From Acidobacteriota bacterium (GTDB lineage Bacteria; Acidobacteriota; Terriglobia; Acidiferrales; UBA7541), in the NCBI GenBank assembly GCA_003225295.1, contig QHYZ01000068.1:1-64000 (forward strand): a DNA stretch of 64,000 nt, written 5' to 3'. The notes under the pieces are model-generated. The model saw nothing but the letters and a program-made list of their open reading frames with translations. It was not told the origin of the DNA and ran no database searches. Both the position numbers and the translations under genes were made by a program. This document shows, in pieces, positions 813 to 58,921 of the stretch. The stretch's first letter is position 1, and each line of letters begins with the position of its first letter.

Positions 813-2186
813 ATGGCAATTGCGACCGTCAATCCGGCGACAGGGGAAGTGGTCAAAACCTTCGAATCGCTATCGGATGCGCAGATTGAAGTGAAACTTC
901 AGAAGGCTGCCGATACGTTTTTGAGCTACCGCAAGGTGCCGATCGCCGAACGCGCACAGATGATGCTTAGGGCGGCAGCGATTCTGGACTGCGAAAAAGA
1001 GAGTTTTGCCCGGACGATGACCACCGAAATGGGCAAGACGTTTCGCTCGGCGGTCGATGAAGCAGCAAAATGCGCGTGGGTGTGCCGTTACTACGCCGAA
1101 AACGCGGAGCGCTTTCTCGCCGACGAAGTGGTCGAGACGACGGCGAGCCGGAGTTACATCCGTTATCAGCCGCTAGGGGCGGTTCTGGCGGTAATGCCAT
1201 GGAATTTTCCGTTTTGGCAAGTGCTGCGATTCGCCGCTCCAGCGTTGATGGCCGGGAACGTTGGACTCCTGAAGCACGCCTCGATTGTTCCGCAAAGTGC
1301 GTTGGCCATTGAGGACATCTTCGGGAGGGCCGGGTTTCCCGAGGGAGCTTTCCAGACACTGCTGATCGGCTCGCAAAGAGTGGACAGAATCCTGGGAGAT
1401 CCGCGAGTAATGGCGGCCACGTTGACGGGAAGCGAAGGAGCAGGAATTGAAGTGGGAATCGGCGCGGCTAAGAGAATCAAGAAAGTGGTGTTGGAACTGG
1501 GAGGAAGCGACCCATTTATTGTGATGCCCAGTGCGAATCTGGAGGTGGCCGCCGCCACGGCGGTGAAGGCGCGGATATTCAATAACGGACAATCCTGCAT
1601 CGCGGCCAAGCGCTTTATTGTGGACGAATCCATTGCCGACAAATTCGAAAGAGTGTTCGCGGAGAAAATGGCGGCGCTGCGGGTAGGGGATCCCTTTGAC
1701 GAGAAGACGGAACTCGGGCCGCTGTCAACGGCGGATGGCCTTGCCGATCTCGATCGCGATGTGAGGAAGACGGTTGAGGCAGGGGCCAAGGTCTTGACCG
1801 GAGGCCAACCGCTGGATCGTCCGGGGAATTTCTATGCTCCCACGGTGCTGACAAATATCCCCAAGGGCTCGCCGGCGCACCAGGAGGAGCTGTTTGGTCC
1901 GGTGGCGAGCGTGTTCCGCGCGGCAGACCTCGATGACGCGATTCGAATTGCGAACGACAGCCGCTTTGGATTGGGGGCCAGTGCCTGGACAAACGACCAG
2001 CAGGAGCGCGAGCGCTTCATCAACGATTTGGAGTCTGGCATGGTGTTCATAAACCGCATGGTGGCTTCCGATCCCCGGATACCCTTCGGGGGAGTGAAAT
2101 GGTCCGGTCATGGGCGAGAATTGGGAGCTCATGGGATTCGCGAATTCACAAACATCAAGACGGTATGGATCGAGGAGGCGCCCTGA
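813..2186 (+). CDS. gabD: NADP-dependent succinate-semialdehyde dehydrogenase (GabD1-type)
   Basis: 457-residue aldehyde dehydrogenase oxidising an aldehyde to its acid, most likely succinate semialdehyde to succinate in the cytoplasm. The catalytic set is intact: Asn131 in MPWNFPFW, Glu228 in LELGGSDPF and Cys262 in NNGQSCIAAKRF. Length and the LELGGSDPFIVMPSA and NNGQSCIAAKRFIV motifs match the short actinobacterial GabD1 type more than the 480-residue E. coli GabD. The ATG at 813 is chosen for GAGGGAG upstream and for the family N-terminus (TVNPATGE). It is the first gene of the island and has a putative GntR operator upstream. Substrate could be another small semialdehyde, given the neighbouring hydroxyacid dehydrogenase. 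Confidence 0.9.
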   Translation: MAIATVNPATGEVVKTFESLSDAQIEVKLQKAADTFLSYRKVPIAERAQMMLRAAAILDCEKESFARTMTTEMGKTFRSAVDEAAKCAWVCRYYAENAERFLADEVVETTASRSYIRYQPLGAVLAVMPWNFPFWQVLRFAAPALMAGNVGLLKHASIVPQSALAIEDIFGRAGFPEGAFQTLLIGSQRVDRILGDPRVMAATLTGSEGAGIEVGIGAAKRIKKVVLELGGSDPFIVMPSANLEVAAATAVKARIFNNGQSCIAAKRFIVDESIADKFERVFAEKMAALRVGDPFDEKTELGPLSTADGLADLDRDVRKTVEAGAKVLTGGQPLDRPGNFYAPTVLTNIPKGSPAHQEELFGPVASVFRAADLDDAIRIANDSRFGLGASAWTNDQQERERFINDLESGMVFINRMVASDPRIPFGGVKWSGHGRELGAHGIREFTNIKTVWIEEAP

Positions 2187-2190
2187 ACAG

Positions 2191-2227
2191 TTGCGGACGC
2201 CAACGAGCGTGTGGTAGATTGGTCCAA
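2191..2227 (+). promoter_or_regulatory. Putative gntR promoter with overlapping operator (site 2)
   Basis: TTGCGG (2191-2196), an 18-base spacer and TAGATT (2215-2220) form a plausible sigma-70 promoter. The palindrome TTGGTCCAA (2219-2227) overlaps the end of the -10 box and the expected start site. Its partner upstream of the dehydrogenase is TTGGACCAA. The arrangement suggests autorepression by the GntR protein encoded just downstream. Confidence 0.5.
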
Positions 2228-2342
2228 CAACTCGACCAGAAGCTGACGAGCCCCACGTCAAACGGTTTTGCTTGATCGAATTGCAGCTGGTACGGCGGTC
2301 GTACCACGACGCGGGAGCTTTCCGTCGGTTTGGGAGGATGTC

Positions 2343-3050
2343 ATGTACAAAATCGTGCGGTCCTCTCGGCTGTATGAGCAAATCGTTCAGCAGGTCGAGG
2401 AATCCATCCACAAAAGTGTTCTGAAGCCCGGAGACCAACTTCCCCCCGAACGCGAACTAGCTCAACAATTTGGCGTGAGTCGCACGGCCGTGCGCGAAGC
2501 AGTGAAAGCTCTTCGCGAAAAGGGGTTGGTGGAAGCCTATCCGGGCCGCGGAACCTTTGTTACCGATGGCACCGGCTATTCCATGCGCCAGTCGCTGGAC
2601 CGGATGTTAAAGGTGGGACAGGCGGAGGGGTCCGGGTTTCTGGCCGAAGTGCGCGAAATCCTGGAGCCGGAGATCGCCGCGCTGGCCGCGGCCCGCGCCG
2701 ACCAAGAGGATCTGTCCTCGATGAGGGAGCAAGTGGCGGTGATGGACAGCGCGCGCAAGGACCCTGATGCGTTCATTGAGGCGGATCTGGATTTTCACCT
2801 GGCTCTCGCGGAAGCCGCGGCAAATCCGCTGATTCTTTCGCTGATCGATTCGATCGTGGGGCTGCTGCGCGAACAGCGGATGGGAATCTTTCAGGTGGAA
2901 GGAGGTCCGGAGCGCGGGCAGTATCACCACAAGAAAATCCTGGAAGCTGTGGAGCACCGCGATCCGCTGGGAGCTCGAGACGCAATGAAGGCGCACCTGC
3001 GGCAAGTACGAGAGGATTCGCGCCGTGCGCCGGGCGGGCAGGAATCCTAA
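2343..3050 (+). CDS. GntR-family regulator, FadR/FCD type
   Basis: 235-residue DNA-binding regulator. Residues about 5-70 form the GntR winged helix-turn-helix, with the hallmark PPERELAQQFGVSRTAVREAV followed by the wing segment GRGTFV. Residues about 90-220 are an all-helical FCD ligand-binding domain with the pattern DLDFHLALAEAA and a later HHKKILEAV, which in this family contribute metal- and acid-binding residues. Such proteins sense carboxylic acids and usually repress adjacent catabolic genes. The ATG at 2343 is preceded by GGGAGG at 5 bases. It sits between the first and second enzyme genes and likely controls both the upstream promoter and its own. Confidence 0.92.
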   Translation: MYKIVRSSRLYEQIVQQVEESIHKSVLKPGDQLPPERELAQQFGVSRTAVREAVKALREKGLVEAYPGRGTFVTDGTGYSMRQSLDRMLKVGQAEGSGFLAEVREILEPEIAALAAARADQEDLSSMREQVAVMDSARKDPDAFIEADLDFHLALAEAAANPLILSLIDSIVGLLREQRMGIFQVEGGPERGQYHHKKILEAVEHRDPLGARDAMKAHLRQVREDSRRAPGGQES

Positions 3051-3240
3051 CAGGAAGGGTCAGTTCTGGAGTCCTTGCAGCAAGAGAATAAATTATGGTT
3101 GGGGCATGCGTTCTCCCGCAACGATTTGAAATGCGCAGATCGATCCAGGCTGAGGCGGTCGCCCTCAAGCCAAAATGCATCAGAAAGGCCGGGAAGCGCA
3201 AGAAGATTTGAGCTGCCTTTTACGAGGAGAAAAAGGGTTC

Positions 3241-4122
3241 ATGGCCAATCTTGGATTTGTCGGTCTTGGCGTGATGGGCAGCGAAATGGTGAACCGGCTG
3301 CTCGGGAAGGGCCACACCGCTACGGGCTACAACCGTACGCGTTCGAAAGCGGAGTGGTTGATCAAGAAGGGGATGAAGTGGGCCAACTCGCCGCGCGCCG
3401 TGGTCGCCGCAGCCGACGTAACCTTTTCCATGGTCACCAATTCCGCAGCGCTTGGCGCGGTGATGAACGGGGCCGATGGAATGCTGGCGGGAGTGACGCG
3501 GGGCAAGATTTTGGTGGATATGAGCACAGTTAGCCCGGCATACAGCCGGGACATGGCGGCCAAGGTGCGGGAAAAGGGCGGGGACATGGTGGACGCGCCG
3601 GTTTCCGGGAGCATCATCACACTGCAAGAGGGGAAATTGTCGGTGATGGTAGGAGGGCGCAAGGAAACTCTCGAAAAAGTGAAGCCGCTGCTGCAAGACA
3701 TCGGGCCAAAAGTAACTCACGTCGGAGACAACGGCCTCGCGCTGGTGATGAAGATCGGCACGAACCTGAGCCTCGCGGTGCAGATGCTGGCGTTCTCTGA
3801 GGGAGTTTTGCTTGCAGAAAAGAGTGGTATTGCGCGCGAAACGGCGGTGGATGTCCTGACGCACAGCGTGATTGCTTCTCCCATGGTGCAGTATCGGGGT
3901 CCGTTCATTCTGAAGATGCCCCAAGAGGCGTGGTTCAACGTAAACATGATGCAGAAAGACATGGATCTGGCATTGGAGCTGGGGCGACAACTGGACGTGC
4001 CCATGCCGACGACGGCGGTGACCAATGAATTTCTGACGGCGGCGCGCGGAATGGGGCTGGTGGAAAAGGATTTTGCAGTTGTTTTCGATGTTTTGGCGCA
4101 AATGTCGGGAGTCAAGCCGTGA
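3241..4122 (+). CDS. 3-hydroxyisobutyrate-dehydrogenase-family oxidoreductase
   Basis: 293-residue NAD(P)-dependent beta-hydroxyacid dehydrogenase. The N-terminal Rossmann motif is GLGVMG (residues 8-13); DAPVSGS near residue 120 is the substrate-binding signature; Lys171 and Asn175 in MKIGTN match the catalytic lysine and asparagine of the family. Members oxidise 3-hydroxyisobutyrate, 3-hydroxypropionate, tartronate semialdehyde and related acids; which one applies here cannot be read from sequence. The ATG at 3241 is preceded by GAGGAG. Its stop overlaps the GTG start of the E1 alpha gene by four bases, which implies translational coupling and a shared pathway. Confidence 0.88.
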   Translation: MANLGFVGLGVMGSEMVNRLLGKGHTATGYNRTRSKAEWLIKKGMKWANSPRAVVAAADVTFSMVTNSAALGAVMNGADGMLAGVTRGKILVDMSTVSPAYSRDMAAKVREKGGDMVDAPVSGSIITLQEGKLSVMVGGRKETLEKVKPLLQDIGPKVTHVGDNGLALVMKIGTNLSLAVQMLAFSEGVLLAEKSGIARETAVDVLTHSVIASPMVQYRGPFILKMPQEAWFNVNMMQKDMDLALELGRQLDVPMPTTAVTNEFLTAARGMGLVEKDFAVVFDVLAQMSGVKP

Positions 4123-54011: not shown

Positions 54012-56624
54012 CTAGTGGTTTTTTTTCGCCGATGGCGAGACCCGACGGCTGAGCGATTCGATAGCATTCTCCAGTCGTTGACGTCGTTCCCAGAAATCGC
54101 CCCAGAGATCACCCTTCTCCTTTAAGCGCGCAAAGACCGTCTTTATGTTCAGTGATGCGGGGCGTAAGCCGGGACGCAATTCGCGGGGTAACAGCGGAGC
54201 GGAAACGGGCGCTTGCGGGAATGCTCGCACGGCGTAGGGGGCAGCCAGCGGGCGCCCAAGAGCATTCTGTTGGACGTCGATCAGGACGCGACCGGCGGGA
54301 CGACGTGCGACGGATCGTTCGTTGGTTACCAGATTCGAGTGTTCGGCGGTTACGGTTCGAGCGACGATCTCGGCGAAGGTTCGTAACTGTTCGTACGTAT
54401 AGACGGGCTCAACAGGAATATACAGGTGGATTCCAGTTGCGCCTGAAGTTTTCAAGAAGCTCGCCAACCGCAATTCTTCCAACTTTTCATGGAGAACTCG
54501 AGCGATCGTGACTACAACGGAGAAATCGGTGCCCTCAGAAGGATCGAGGTCGAAGAAGAAATAGTCAGGATGCTCAAGATCGGCATAGCGGCTGGACCAC
54601 GGGTTGTGGTCGATGCAACCGAGGCCGGTCAAAAACAGCAGGGAGGCCCGATCGTTGGCGGTGGCGTAGTGTATTTCTTCTCCGCGTTTTTCGGAATCGA
54701 GGGGCATGGTTGTAAACCATTCTGGTATCCCCTCGCGCAAGTCCTTTTGAAAGAAAGCTTGGCCCTTGATTCCGTCTGGGTAGCGGCGCAAAACCAAAGG
54801 CCGATCGGCGAGAAAAGGCAAGACGAAGTCGGCCATGCGGTAGTAGTAGGCCAGTAGATTTCGTTTCGTGTAGCCGGACTCGGGAAAATAGACTTTGTTC
54901 AAGTTGCTCAGCCGCAGCCGTTTGCCGTTGAGTTCAATGGTGACGGTTTCCGAGCCTCCCTTGAACAACTCAGCTTCGATCTGGGCTTTTGTGTTGAGTA
55001 CGCGGCCGACGAACTCGGGGGCTCGAACTGCAGTTGGATCGGCGGCGGGGGCGGCTTCGTTCTCCCATTGGCAATCCAAGGGACGCGCATCCTCGCGGAG
55101 CGCGAGGAAAACAGGATGACGCAGGGAGTGCTCCTGTGTCCAGCCGCTGAACTTGACACGCGCAACTAAAACCGGAGAGACCCAGGATGGCCTTTCGTTG
55201 GTTTCGGGCACGGTGTCGAACGGGCAAGCGGGAGCCGCGAGTTCCTTCAACTTGCTAGTTACTTCTTTTAGCTTTTTCGCGTCAAATCCACTGCCAACAT
55301 GACCGATGAATCGAAGTTTTTTGCCTTGATACAAGCCCAACAGCAGCGAGCCAAATGGAAGGGCAGCACTGCGAGGTGCACTCCAGCCGCCCACGACAGC
55401 GTCCACCGTTTTAGTAATCTTTAGCTTCACCCAGTACGGACTTCGATCACCAACGTACGGGCTGTCGGCTCGCTTTGCGACGATCCCTTCCAAGCCATTC
55501 TGTTCTGCCAGCCCGAACAGTTCTTTTCCGTGCTCCAACTGATGGTCGGAGTACCGAAACTGTTCGGACGTGCGAAGCAATCGGTACAGGAGCTGCTTGC
55601 GATCGAGGAGTGGAGTTTCGCGAAGGTCGTATCCGTCACAGTAGAGAAGATCAAAGACGAAGTACACGACAGGGACCCGCGAGAGGAGGCTCTCGCTGGG
55701 AGCCCGCACGTGCATGCGTTCCTGCAAGAGTTCGAAGTCACTGTGACCACGGGTGTCTAGAGCGACGATCTCTCCATCAAGAATTGCCTGGCGGGCGGCC
55801 AAGGCATCGGGAAGAGAGGCCAGTTCGGGATAGCGCTTGTCCATGTCAACGCCGGTGCGAGAGCGTAACGTCAAAGCGTCATTCTCAATTCGGGCTAGCG
55901 CGCGCACACCGTCCCACTTGATCTCAAAGAGCCAGTTGGGATCGGAAAAGGGGCGGTCGGTGAGCGTCGCCAGCATGGGTTCCACGCGAGACGGCATCGA
56001 GCACTTGCGTGCGCCTTGCAACTCTGCCGCGCGAATTGGGCTTGCCTTGCGTTTGGGGGGCAGCTCCTCCTTAATCTCTTCTAGCGTGCGTCCCGTGAGG
56101 ACCGAGCCGTCGTGCTCCTCGATGTTCCAAGCGGAATCTTCGGCGGCGTCCTTGTGTTTCATCATCAGCCATTCGTTGCCCTTCTCGCTGTGCCTAAGCT
56201 TGACCAAAACGAAGCTGCCCCGCAGCTTCTCGCCGTTCAGATTGAACTTGATTTCCTCCCGTTCTAGTTGCTTTCGCGCATCGAGGGTGCCCTCAACGGT
56301 GAAGGTCCCGCGGTCCCAAACCATAACCGTTCCTGCGCCGTAGCTGCCCTCGGGGATCTTTCCTTCAAAGCCGCCGTAATCGAGCGGATGATCCTCGGTT
56401 TCGACGGCCAGACGTTTGTCCGCGGAGTTAAGCGAAGGTCCCTTGGGCACAGCCCAGGACTTCAACGTGCCGTTGATGGCCAAGCGGAAGTCGTAGTGCA
56501 GGCGACGGGCAGCATGTTTTTGGACGACGAACGTATTTTCGGAAGTGGCTTGAACGTCTTTGCCAGAGGGCTCGGGAGTTAGGTCGAAGCGGCGTTTTCG
56601 CCGGTATTCTTCAAGCTTGGACAT
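54012..56624 (-). CDS. ligD: ATP-dependent DNA ligase D, three-domain NHEJ ligase
   Basis: 870-residue enzyme for bacterial non-homologous end joining. Domain order is phosphoesterase (1-160; VQKHAARRLHYDFRL and EDHPLDYGGFEG contain the active-site His, Asp and Arg), ATP-dependent ligase (about 205-520; adenylated Lys236 in EIKWDGVRA, DGEIVALD, EGIVAKR) and primase-polymerase (about 565-855; FFFDLDPSEG with Asp692 and Asp694, SGATGIHLYIP). This is the same order as in Pseudomonas aeruginosa LigD. All three active sites appear intact. It is transcribed divergently from ku with 177 bases between them, allowing joint control. Confidence 0.95.
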   Translation of the reverse strand: MSKLEEYRRKRRFDLTPEPSGKDVQATSENTFVVQKHAARRLHYDFRLAINGTLKSWAVPKGPSLNSADKRLAVETEDHPLDYGGFEGKIPEGSYGAGTVMVWDRGTFTVEGTLDARKQLEREEIKFNLNGEKLRGSFVLVKLRHSEKGNEWLMMKHKDAAEDSAWNIEEHDGSVLTGRTLEEIKEELPPKRKASPIRAAELQGARKCSMPSRVEPMLATLTDRPFSDPNWLFEIKWDGVRALARIENDALTLRSRTGVDMDKRYPELASLPDALAARQAILDGEIVALDTRGHSDFELLQERMHVRAPSESLLSRVPVVYFVFDLLYCDGYDLRETPLLDRKQLLYRLLRTSEQFRYSDHQLEHGKELFGLAEQNGLEGIVAKRADSPYVGDRSPYWVKLKITKTVDAVVGGWSAPRSAALPFGSLLLGLYQGKKLRFIGHVGSGFDAKKLKEVTSKLKELAAPACPFDTVPETNERPSWVSPVLVARVKFSGWTQEHSLRHPVFLALREDARPLDCQWENEAAPAADPTAVRAPEFVGRVLNTKAQIEAELFKGGSETVTIELNGKRLRLSNLNKVYFPESGYTKRNLLAYYYRMADFVLPFLADRPLVLRRYPDGIKGQAFFQKDLREGIPEWFTTMPLDSEKRGEEIHYATANDRASLLFLTGLGCIDHNPWSSRYADLEHPDYFFFDLDPSEGTDFSVVVTIARVLHEKLEELRLASFLKTSGATGIHLYIPVEPVYTYEQLRTFAEIVARTVTAEHSNLVTNERSVARRPAGRVLIDVQQNALGRPLAAPYAVRAFPQAPVSAPLLPRELRPGLRPASLNIKTVFARLKEKGDLWGDFWERRQRLENAIESLSRRVSPSAKKNH

Positions 56625-56801
56625 GAAGGCATTCTATCCCAGACTTTTCCTTGGGCCCCAGGCCTGCCCATCCGATGCAAATTAGTATGAAGCTGACTGA
56701 TAAACGACCTGCCCAGGATTCGTCTTGCTTCCTGCCGGCGTGGACGGCTAATCTTAAAGGCTTGTGCACCGTCCCAAGGCTGCCGTCGAAGGAGCGTTCA
56801 C

Positions 56802-57683
56802 ATGGCCACGACCGTCTGGAAAGGCCACCTCACCTTTGGCCTGATTTCGATGCCCGTCCGCATGTTTGCCGCCGCCCGCGGTGAACGAATCAGTTTCAAC
56901 CAGCTCCACAAGCAGTGCCATTCGCGTCTCAAGCAGCCCCTGTTTTGTCCCGTCTGCAATCGCAACGTGGAACGGTCCGAAATTGTGAAGGGCTATGAAT
57001 ACGAAAAGGACCAGTACGTCTTGTTCAACGAAGAAGAACTCGACAAGATCGAGCCCTCCTCGGCGCGCGTGATGGAGATTCTGGAGTTCGTGAAGCTGGA
57101 TGAGATGGATCCGCTGTACTTCGATTCCTCCTATTACCTCACGCCGGAAGACGCCGGGGTGAAAGCTTATCAACTGCTGATGAAGGCTATGGAGGAGTCC
57201 GGATACGGAGCCATCGCGAAGCTCACCATGCACCAGCGCGAACACATCGTGATTGTCCGGCCAGGGACTAAGGGCATGACGCTGCATACGATGTTTTATT
57301 CCAATGAGATTCGCGCGGCGGAGTCCGTTCCGACTGACAAGATCGAAGTGAAAGAACAGGAAAAGAAGCTGGCGCGACAACTTATTGAAAGTCTTGCGGC
57401 TCCCTTCGAGCCACAAAGATATCGGGACGAGTATCAAGAGAATGTGCGGGCGATGATCGCTGCCAAGCTCAAGGGCCAGGAGGTAACCGAAGTTGCCCAG
57501 CCGCATATGGCTCCGGTGATTGATTTGATGGAGGCCCTCAAGAAAAGTCTCGCGGAAAAGCAAGCCCCGGCTGCGGCGGCCGCACCCGCAGCGCCAGTGC
57601 CGGTGGGCAAGAAACCTCCAACTCGAGCCGTGCAACCGATCTCATCGGTGCAGAAAAAGGCAGGAAAGAAGGCCACCGGTTAA
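56802..57683 (+). CDS. ku: Ku homodimer DNA end-binding protein
   Basis: 293-residue bacterial Ku. WKGHLTFGLISMPVRMF is the conserved N-terminus; FCPVCNRNVERSEIVKGYEYEK and the central DNA-encircling bridge region follow. The C-terminal 45 residues are a low-complexity Ala/Pro/Lys tail that in other Ku proteins aids DNA binding and LigD recruitment. AAGGAG lies 8 bases before the ATG. It works with the divergent ligD. A MerR-TPR gene begins 6 bases after the stop, so the two are expected to be on one transcript. Confidence 0.95.
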   Translation: MATTVWKGHLTFGLISMPVRMFAAARGERISFNQLHKQCHSRLKQPLFCPVCNRNVERSEIVKGYEYEKDQYVLFNEEELDKIEPSSARVMEILEFVKLDEMDPLYFDSSYYLTPEDAGVKAYQLLMKAMEESGYGAIAKLTMHQREHIVIVRPGTKGMTLHTMFYSNEIRAAESVPTDKIEVKEQEKKLARQLIESLAAPFEPQRYRDEYQENVRAMIAAKLKGQEVTEVAQPHMAPVIDLMEALKKSLAEKQAPAAAAAPAAPVPVGKKPPTRAVQPISSVQKKAGKKATG

Positions 57684-57689
57684 TTCCTG

Positions 57690-58568
57690 ATGGGTGCGAC
57701 GGACAGATTCACTCCGGAGGAGACCCAGCGCATTGTGGGTCTGACCGGGAAGCAGCTGGATTATTGGGACCGCTTGCGCCTTGTCTCTCCCCGAAAAGAA
57801 CAAGGAAGCCGCTTCTACGACTTCGGCGACCTGATTGGCCTGCGCACAGTAAAGCAATTGATCGAAAAAGGAGTGCCCGCCAACCGTTTGCGACGAGCGC
57901 TTGCCGCGCTTCGTGAGAAACTTGCCCAAGTCCACGCGCCGCTGGCGGAGCTGCGTGTTCTTTCCGATGGGAAAGATATCGTTGTGGAGCGCGGCGGGGC
58001 GCGACTGGAACCGCTGTCGGGTCAGTTTGTGTTGAACTTCGAGATTGGCGAGCTTGACGAAAGAGTTCGTGTCATGGCGAGTCGCAATGCCGATGAGTGG
58101 CTGGCCACGGCACTCGCTTATGAGGCCGAGGGAAAGACCCGGGCCCAAGCAATCGATGCGTATGAGCGTGCCCTATGCGTCGATCCCCAGAGGCTTGAGG
58201 TACTGATCAATTGCGGGACGCTTTGCTACGAGGATGGAAATCTCGAAAAGGCGTCTGAGTACTTCCGTCGCGCTCTCGGATTGGACGCGGAAAACGCTTT
58301 GACCCATTTTAATCTAGGGAGTGTGCTGGAAGAAATCGGCGAAGTCGAAGCAGCACGGCGGCACCTCCGGCGAGCAGTTCGTCTGGATCCAAACTATCCC
58401 GACGCACACTACAATCTGGCTTTCGTTTGCGAGAAGCTGGGCGCGTATGCCGAAGCGCAGGAGCACTGGGAAGCATATGTCCGACTAGACCCCGTGGGCC
58501 CTTGGTGCAACTATGCCCGCCAACGCCTCGCCTCTTCCAAGACGGCCAAGTCGGCCAGTAACAAGTAA
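57690..58568 (+). CDS. MerR-type HTH fused to TPR repeats
   Basis: 292-residue two-domain protein. Residues 7-75 form a MerR-like winged helix (QRIVGLTGKQLDYWDRLRLV, RFYDFGDLIGLRTVKQLI). Residues about 140-275 contain three to four tetratricopeptide repeats (AIDAYERALCVDPQRLEVL, ASEYFRRALGLDAENALTHF, ARRHLRRAVRLDPNYPDAHY). The usual MerR dimerisation coil and metal-binding cysteines are absent. It may be a DNA-binding regulator controlled by protein-protein contact. The six-base gap to ku suggests a role in end-joining or its regulation, which is inference from position only. Confidence 0.85.
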   Translation: MGATDRFTPEETQRIVGLTGKQLDYWDRLRLVSPRKEQGSRFYDFGDLIGLRTVKQLIEKGVPANRLRRALAALREKLAQVHAPLAELRVLSDGKDIVVERGGARLEPLSGQFVLNFEIGELDERVRVMASRNADEWLATALAYEAEGKTRAQAIDAYERALCVDPQRLEVLINCGTLCYEDGNLEKASEYFRRALGLDAENALTHFNLGSVLEEIGEVEAARRHLRRAVRLDPNYPDAHYNLAFVCEKLGAYAEAQEHWEAYVRLDPVGPWCNYARQRLASSKTAKSASNK

Positions 58569-58666: not shown

Positions 58667-58921
58667 ATGTGCAGGAACATCAAAACACTTTTCAACTTTG
58701 ATCCGCCCGTCACCGCAGCAGAGATTCAAGCTGCCTCTCTCCAGTTCGTGAGAAAAATCAGCGGTTTTAGCAAACCGTCGAGAGCCAATGAGGCCTCGTT
58801 CCTGGCTGCTGTCGATGATATAGCGGAGATATCGACCCGTCTCATTCATGCCCTCGAAACGACCGCAGCACCGAAGAATCGAGAAGAACAAGCCGCAAAG
58901 GCCAAGGCTCGCGCCTTTTGA
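58667..58921 (+). CDS. DUF2277 small protein
   Basis: 84-residue protein with the family hallmark MCRNIKTLFNFDPP at the start, LQFVRKISGFSKPS in the middle and an Ala/Lys/Arg-rich C-terminus. These proteins are widespread in soil bacteria and have no known function; the opening CRNIK motif is almost invariant. TTGAGGT lies about 8 bases upstream of the ATG. It stands alone downstream of the MerR-TPR gene. Confidence 0.85.
   Translation: MCRNIKTLFNFDPPVTAAEIQAASLQFVRKISGFSKPSRANEASFLAAVDDIAEISTRLIHALETTAAPKNREEQAAKAKARAF

Follow-up and report, generated by a model that had tools for sequence, protein, structure and literature searches.

Proteins with MerR-type domains are, as a rule, transcription factors. 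The RRNPP quorum regulators (PlcR, NprR, PrgX) consist of an HTH and a TPR sensor, and their binding to DNA is controlled by a peptide; the DNA-binding domain of these regulators is of the XRE type. A ladder of asparagines is a feature of those TPRs that bind peptides.

Bacterial end joining is termed two-component in the available portion of PMC12784962, and the available portion of PMC3102665 describes it as a matter of two proteins only, while reporting a Sir2-like protein in end joining of mycobacteria. The positions of ku and ligD are compared in the methods of PMC7719229, in the portion available.

The stretch of DNA analysed here (the window) comprises 64,000 nucleotides from an Acidobacteriota bacterium, whose named relatives are gp2 Acidobacteria, among them Candidatus Acidiferrum of the order Candidatus Acidiferrales. 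It has the same gene block of ku and ligD that is known from two-component Ku/LigD end joining, but here a third gene, encoding a MerR-like domain joined to TPRs (MerR-TPR), is kept next to ku. The mycobacterial Sir2-like protein is also a third protein in bacterial end joining, but in the available portion of PMC3102665 it is by name a sirtuin, not a MerR-TPR protein. No paper on a MerR-TPR protein encoded beside ku was found among the open-access papers searched. Judged by its recurrent adjacency to ku and its co-occurrence with Ku, the MerR-TPR gene is a conserved component of end-joining gene blocks, although this does not hold for the majority of the other lineages in the class of the window. 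This suggests that bacterial end joining, usually presented as a two-protein process, often has a third partner in soil bacteria of two unrelated phyla.

Organisation of the locus

The ku gene is located on the forward strand at positions 56802–57683 (PF02735, E = 6.3e-49; NCBIfam Ku_bact, E = 4e-89) and is preceded by AAGGAG (56789–56794, forward strand), likely its ribosome-binding site, which was read from the sequence and is kept in the alignment of upstream regions. Immediately 3′ of ku, on the same strand, is the MerR-TPR gene (57690–58568), which encodes 292 amino acids and was recognised by its translation, by Pfam matches to MerR_1 and TPR, and as belonging to a conserved family. The region 56802–58568 thus comprises ku and the fusion, the fusion alone being 57690–58568. 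The stop codon of ku ends at 57683 and the ATG of the MerR-TPR gene is at 57690; because the gap is only 6 bases, the MerR-TPR gene probably shares the ku transcript. The ligD gene, with phosphoesterase, ligase and polymerase domains (Pfam LigD_N, DNA_ligase_A_M and LigD_Prim-Pol), is divergent (54012–56624, reverse strand) and is separated from ku by a spacer of 177 bp. The initial annotation, which had placed a MerR-like domain with TPRs six bases past ku and opposite a divergent ligD, is borne out by these coordinates and by Pfam.

The ku/MerR-TPR pair is followed by a DUF2277 gene (Pfam; 58667–58921), found in the same position in ten loci of close relatives (L068–L072, L074, L075, L077, L080, L081).

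Domains and predicted structure of the MerR-TPR protein

Pfam matched MerR_1 at residues 8–73 (E = 1.3e-8; 35.3 bits against a cut-off of 21.6) and TPR families at residues ~150–271 (TPR_11, E = 3.7e-22). Across 28 aligned family sequences, the window's protein included, the mean column identity was 61%. The MerR_1 cut-off was exceeded by nine of ten further homologues, L226 falling slightly below at 20.2 bits, and tandem TPRs were found by Pfam in all ten homologues spanning the range.

In the AlphaFold model, whose mean pLDDT is 76.5, the winged helix is followed by a hairpin (residues 88–101), a low-confidence stretch (residues 106–130) and, at residues 134–290, four TPRs capped by a helix. 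The gene can be divided correspondingly, each part being on the forward strand. The MerR-type winged helix (residues 1–80; 57690–57929) includes the Pfam match together with predicted helices at residues 9–16, 20–28, 45–59 and 64–80 and a wing at residues 35–43. A small conserved module (residues 88–117; 57951–58040) was delimited from the alignment and from the β-hairpin at residues 88–101, which is predicted with low confidence; among 20 diverse rows, Q112 and F117 of this module are invariant, and G94 and G111 nearly so. The four TPRs and the cap helix (residues 134–290; 58089–58559) were placed from Pfam, AlphaFold and column counts. Low confidence at residues 80–130 was also obtained when residues 1–132 were modelled alone (mean pLDDT 61).

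The winged-helix DNA-binding domain is shared with the MerR regulators GlnR/TnrA, CarH, CvkR and NmlR, as seen from sequence-profile and structure (PDB) matches. In contrast to these regulators, the AlphaFold model of the MerR-TPR protein has no long fifth helix, i.e., the helix of the MerR coiled coil and of dimerisation; rather, helix 64–80 is followed by the hairpin with the GQ-F module, a low-confidence linker and the TPR superhelix. As the model is without the long fifth helix, the protein is classified only as a relative of the MerR superfamily through its DNA-binding domain, and not as a typical member. The RRNPP regulators likewise combine an HTH with TPRs, but the HTH of the present protein is of the MerR_1 family and there is no XRE family among its Pfam matches, which rules out membership of the RRNPP group. 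From its domains, the binding of this protein to DNA may be controlled by another protein.

Asparagines 174, 208 and 242, which we take to be positioned as in peptide-binding TPRs, are conserved in 34, 35 and 33, respectively, of the 35 rows linked to ku, and equally in rows that are not linked to ku (41, 36 and 41 of 42). The TPR part is acidic, with a median net charge of −9 in the 35 ku-linked rows and similar medians, −6 and −7, in unlinked homologues; the tails of Ku, read by eye, look basic. Specificity of the TPR part for the Ku tail was therefore rejected as a distinguishing property, as neither charge nor asparagines separate linked from unlinked homologues.

Linkage to ku in Acidobacteriota

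The window's order was sampled with 95 genomes (protein profile, E up to 1e-20, plus a Ku search) and the phylum with 297 genomes (broader protein profile, E up to 1e-14, plus a Ku search). The positions of Ku and its partner, in these samples and on plasmids, were matched by hand on the listed coordinates. Within the window's genus (36 genomes), the protein is present in 26 genomes and Ku in 27. In 25 of the 26, the MerR-TPR gene is the next gene after ku and shares its contig and strand; in the other (G029), both genes are at contig ends. All nine genomes of the genus that are without ku are also without the protein, and one genome (G021) has ku alone. For the co-occurrence of the two, Fisher p = 1.1e-7, uncorrected for kinship.

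Outside the genus but within the order (59 genomes), 43 genomes have the protein, 27 have Ku and 25 have both; the protein is adjacent to ku in only four of the 43 (G041, G061, G129, G210), and 18 of the 43 gave no Ku match, some of the genomes being incomplete. Outside the order but within the class, the protein is immediately 3′ of ku in G043 (family f4) and in G149 and G153 (f6); inside the class, ku-adjacent copies span four families (f1, f3, f4, f6). Of the phylum sample, 33 genomes were taken as the window's class, as the order of the listing suggests, and the remaining 264 as outside it. Among the 33, the protein is found in 32 and Ku in 27, side by side only in the window's own genome, i.e., in none of the 31 other class members with the protein.

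In the 264 genomes outside the class, the protein was found in 37, Ku in 71 and both in 30 (Fisher p = 8.7e-14, uncorrected for kinship). It is adjacent to ku in 25 of the 37, directly downstream in 23 of these (17 families); in G605 it is on the same strand as ku, 0.8 kb beyond the 3′ end of that gene, and in G357 it is the divergent neighbour of ku. In G505 and G509 the locus is interrupted by the end of a contig, in G374, G412 and G566 Ku is encoded at another site, and the other seven of the 37 genomes gave no match to Ku. Conversely, 41 of the 71 genomes with Ku gave no match to the protein. The TPR part was found by Pfam in ten of ten homologues chosen over the range, was read in 14 fetched sequences, and for the rest of the 37 was judged from the length of the frame. 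Nine of the loci fetched from outside the class allowed the starts of both ku and ligD to be located; in these, ligD is divergent from ku, with an estimated distance between starts of 41–128 bp in eight and 324 bp in one (L164).

Linkage to ku on Burkholderiales plasmids

A plasmid search gave 15 records; among the ten listed, one match, from Caballeronia, covered 90% of the query. This Caballeronia protein is annotated as a “tetratricopeptide repeat protein” and is encoded directly 3′ of ku, with ligD divergent; the other nine listed matches, with coverage of 33–38%, carry annotations as MerR regulators. A search with the N-terminal part of the Caballeronia protein identified 33 plasmid records, all from Burkholderiales, in five genera. 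According to a comparison of coordinates with the Ku search, ku is directly upstream in 31 of the 33; of the two exceptions, H43 adjoins a broken ku, and in H19 no ku was found. When 19 plasmid loci were opened, an annotated Ku was directly upstream in 18, and ku was present, although unlisted, in L221. In the opposite direction, the best 60 of 652 Ku matches include 32 records from Burkholderiales, of which 31 have the protein and one, from Cupriavidus pinatubonensis, does not; Burkholderiales ku genes of lower similarity to the query may be missing from these 60. In the stretches fetched from plasmids of Gemmatirosa, Ensifer, Arthrobacter and Cupriavidus pinatubonensis, the protein was not found beside ku.

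In Burkholderiales, ligD is divergent in L212, L214 and L224, upstream on the same strand in L215, L216 and L226, downstream on the same strand in L230, and otherwise elsewhere; L226 is from plasmid pBB2 of Cupriavidus necator N-1. Of the 16 Burkholderiales ku/partner pairs measured, 7 have overlapping start and stop codons. The gap between ku and its partner is at most 30 nt in 25 of 37 Acidobacteriota pairs and in 14 of 16 Burkholderiales pairs, giving 39 of the 53 measured (counted without L071, L078, L079, L089, L173, L217, L221, L230 and L182–L211). The ku-adjacent protein is known from 21 families of Acidobacteriota and from Burkholderiales.

The survey of ku neighbourhoods, proposed with the initial annotation, thus gave a divided result: in the other lineages of the window's class the fusion is mostly away from ku (adjacent in 4/43 and 0/31), whereas elsewhere it is mostly beside ku (25/37 outside the class; 31/33 plasmid records). 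The coupling to ku that had been claimed is upheld by synteny in Acidobacteriota and Burkholderiales, the genus contributing 25/26 in addition to the counts outside the class and on plasmids, and a functional tie to ku in these two groups is strongly supported by gene order and co-occurrence.

On plasmid p22B1P2 (L236), there is a ligD–ku–MerR-TPR block in which all three genes are apparently broken.

Evolutionary history

Relatives were sought in Acidobacteriota, in one pattern-based scan of genome contigs, in viral contigs and in plasmids; none was confirmed among the viral contigs. Membership of a defence system was considered and rejected, there being just a weak match to PrimPol, via the TPR part.

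In a quick tree of 83 rows, in which the 26 rows named win or L010–L035 are represented by 10, the ku label occurs in all four main branches (16/19, 4/7, 1/22 and 14/35 rows). The starred forks force at least seven changes of the ku label, although stars in a quick tree call for caution; therefore, the linkage would be either very old or repeatedly made, and gains and losses of the label are indistinguishable in this tree. The 17 Burkholderiales rows form one clade in a tree in which 10 rows stand for the 42 unlinked ones of Terriglobia and from which L217 and L230 (annotated starts truncated) were omitted. Over 35 linked pairs, the distances between Ku proteins are correlated with those between their partners (Mantel r = 0.897; 0 of 5000 permutations), as expected for joint inheritance. 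One comparison set was compiled without L027 and L036 (truncated) and without the duplicate loci L068–L098, and the Ku row of L144, which holds an undetermined residue, was shortened to 221 residues.

The region upstream of ku

A conserved block 5′ of ku, a putative promoter, is located at 56717–56756 on the forward strand (GATTCGTCTTGCTTC, 16 nt, CTAATCTTA). It corresponds to the consensus of 22 aligned regions upstream of ku (GATTCGNCTTGCATC, 15–16 nt, CTAATCTTA), which is not shown by all rows; loci in which the start of ku was cut or was missed by the pattern were left out of the alignment, as was L089 (a duplicate of L100). The presumed ku promoter has a spacer of 17–18 bp, as read from the alignment. 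MerR proteins bind, as dimers, promoters with a spacer of 19–20 bp. The first part of the block, ATTCGNCTTGCNTC, has one match in the genome, and a looser spaced pattern of the block has two, the second on contig C115.

Of the 28 linked ku regions, 17 score higher for the block than any of 384 shuffled sequences, and 11 score lower than the best of these. It also exceeds all shuffles in two of 20 ku genes that have no partner after them (L155 and L159, both of genus g25), and three more such genes (L143, L144, L147) exceed the 95% level of the shuffles. As it occurs at ku genes without a partner, the block is not evidence of an operator for the partner. Its candidacy as the partner's operator in the ligD–ku spacer was dropped: two of the 20 partner-less ku genes carry it, and the seed had come from linked loci. 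Rather than the partner, the block may mark the ku promoter of this lineage of ku. The idea that regulation is exerted through the ligD–ku spacer, as initially suggested, is not supported, given the occurrence of the block 5′ of partner-less ku genes and the finding that ligD of Burkholderiales is not always divergent or adjacent though the protein stays with ku. By eye, no operator common to ku-linked and unlinked loci was seen, the unlinked loci of the kinase type having a different-looking motif, and no upstream motif common across classes was seen.

Function of the MerR-TPR protein

The MerR-TPR protein is most likely a dedicated partner of Ku that acts as a protein-controlled regulator of transcription of the ku operon, to which reading a probability of just under one half (about 0.48) can be assigned. 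The protein would be made from the ku transcript and would tune its own ku operon. Its MerR domain, which in the model is short of the helix normally used for dimerisation, would attach to DNA close to the promoter of ku. The groove of the TPRs would accommodate an extended peptide, for which the basic Ku tail is the most plausible candidate; expression of the operon would then be set by how much Ku is free. Where it is encoded away from ku, the protein would act as a regulator elsewhere.

Regulation is favoured because MerR-type domains regulate transcription and because the protein occurs in many genomes without a Ku match. It is also favoured because part of the block upstream of ku is unique in the genome, and because the gene is retained at sites distant from ku, or in genomes that gave no match to Ku, next to a histidine kinase and its response regulator, FeoB or AcrB. 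Against a regulator are the presence of the upstream block at partner-less ku genes, the lack of an operator shared between linked and unlinked loci or between classes, the absence of the dimerisation helix from the model, and the position of the gene downstream of ku rather than divergent from it. The reading as a dedicated partner is also opposed by the 41/71 Ku-bearing genomes outside the class in which the protein was not matched and, in the order outside the genus, by adjacency to ku in just 4/43 and the lack of a Ku match in 18/43.

A serious rival, though less probable, is a role as an accessory factor in end joining, in which the TPRs would bind the C-terminal arm of Ku or LigD and the MerR-type domain would grip DNA near the end, the protein helping to hold or bring together ends, or recruiting the ligase. 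This role is kept alive by the tightness of the coupling to ku and not to ligD, the protein of Burkholderiales remaining beside ku whether ligD is divergent, upstream, downstream or outside the opened stretch, and by the codons that overlap in 7 of 16 plasmid pairs, as for subunits that are made together. The conserved asparagines 174, 208 and 242, and an acidic TPR part (median −9) facing Ku tails that look basic by eye, are in keeping with it, but both properties are alike in unlinked homologues. Moreover, the protein is found without a Ku match in 7/37 genomes outside the class and in 18/43 of the order outside the genus, and end joining can evidently dispense with it, as it is absent from 41/71 Ku-bearing genomes outside the class and from four ku regions on plasmids.

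Somewhat unlikely is a three-component form of end joining in Acidobacteriota and Burkholderiales, in which the MerR-TPR protein would be made with Ku, read the Ku tail via the TPR groove, bind DNA via the MerR-type domain, and act at the break, either in addition to the ku promoter or in its place. A putative DNA-binding, protein-sensing partner that is tied to ku in two phyla and on plasmids would raise the questions of what determines the level of Ku and whether a third component takes part in the pathway. Such a partner may also be relevant to moving end-joining systems into other bacteria for genome editing.

Copies away from ku and their neighbours

In L106 (6513–8853), an unlinked gene is divergent from genes for a GAF histidine kinase and a NarL-type regulator (Pfam). 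A divergent gene pair of like lengths was found in 12 genomes in all, the other loci being L097, L102, L104, L105, L107, L109, L117, L121, L123, L124 and L127; only the pair in L106 has been identified. The unlinked gene is divergent from FeoB in L118 and L136, and other unlinked copies adjoin AcrB. Such neighbours would be expected if the protein were a global or stress regulator of wide scope, acting for instance on iron or envelope genes, and if it did no more than share the ku transcript in some lineages. A gene for an iron-dependent repressor with a FeoA domain, 3′ of the MerR-TPR gene in L162 (5942–6640), L163 (3582–4241) and L166 (6068–6979), points the same way, and a link of the MerR-TPR protein to iron is possible from these neighbourhoods. 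A regulator of wide scope is nevertheless improbable, as the non-ku neighbours in the opened loci vary by lineage, whereas ku recurs in two phyla.

That the MerR-TPR gene is a passenger, linked to ku by chance or by joint transfer of the block and without a functional tie, is very improbable: the pair does sit on Burkholderiales plasmids, and transfer of ku between bacterial groups is reported in the available portion of PMC7719229, but the order of the genes and their short gaps are conserved over deep branches while ligD and other neighbours have been reshuffled.

Among 18 aligned upstream regions of unlinked loci, TTGACANNGGGTGCATAATC is common to part. A DUF2760 gene is found 3′ of the unlinked MerR-TPR gene in L126, L130, L132 and L136. 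In L165, from a genome without a Ku match, a gene for an SMC/Rad50-like ATPase (1799–3955) ends ~1 kb upstream of the MerR-TPR gene.
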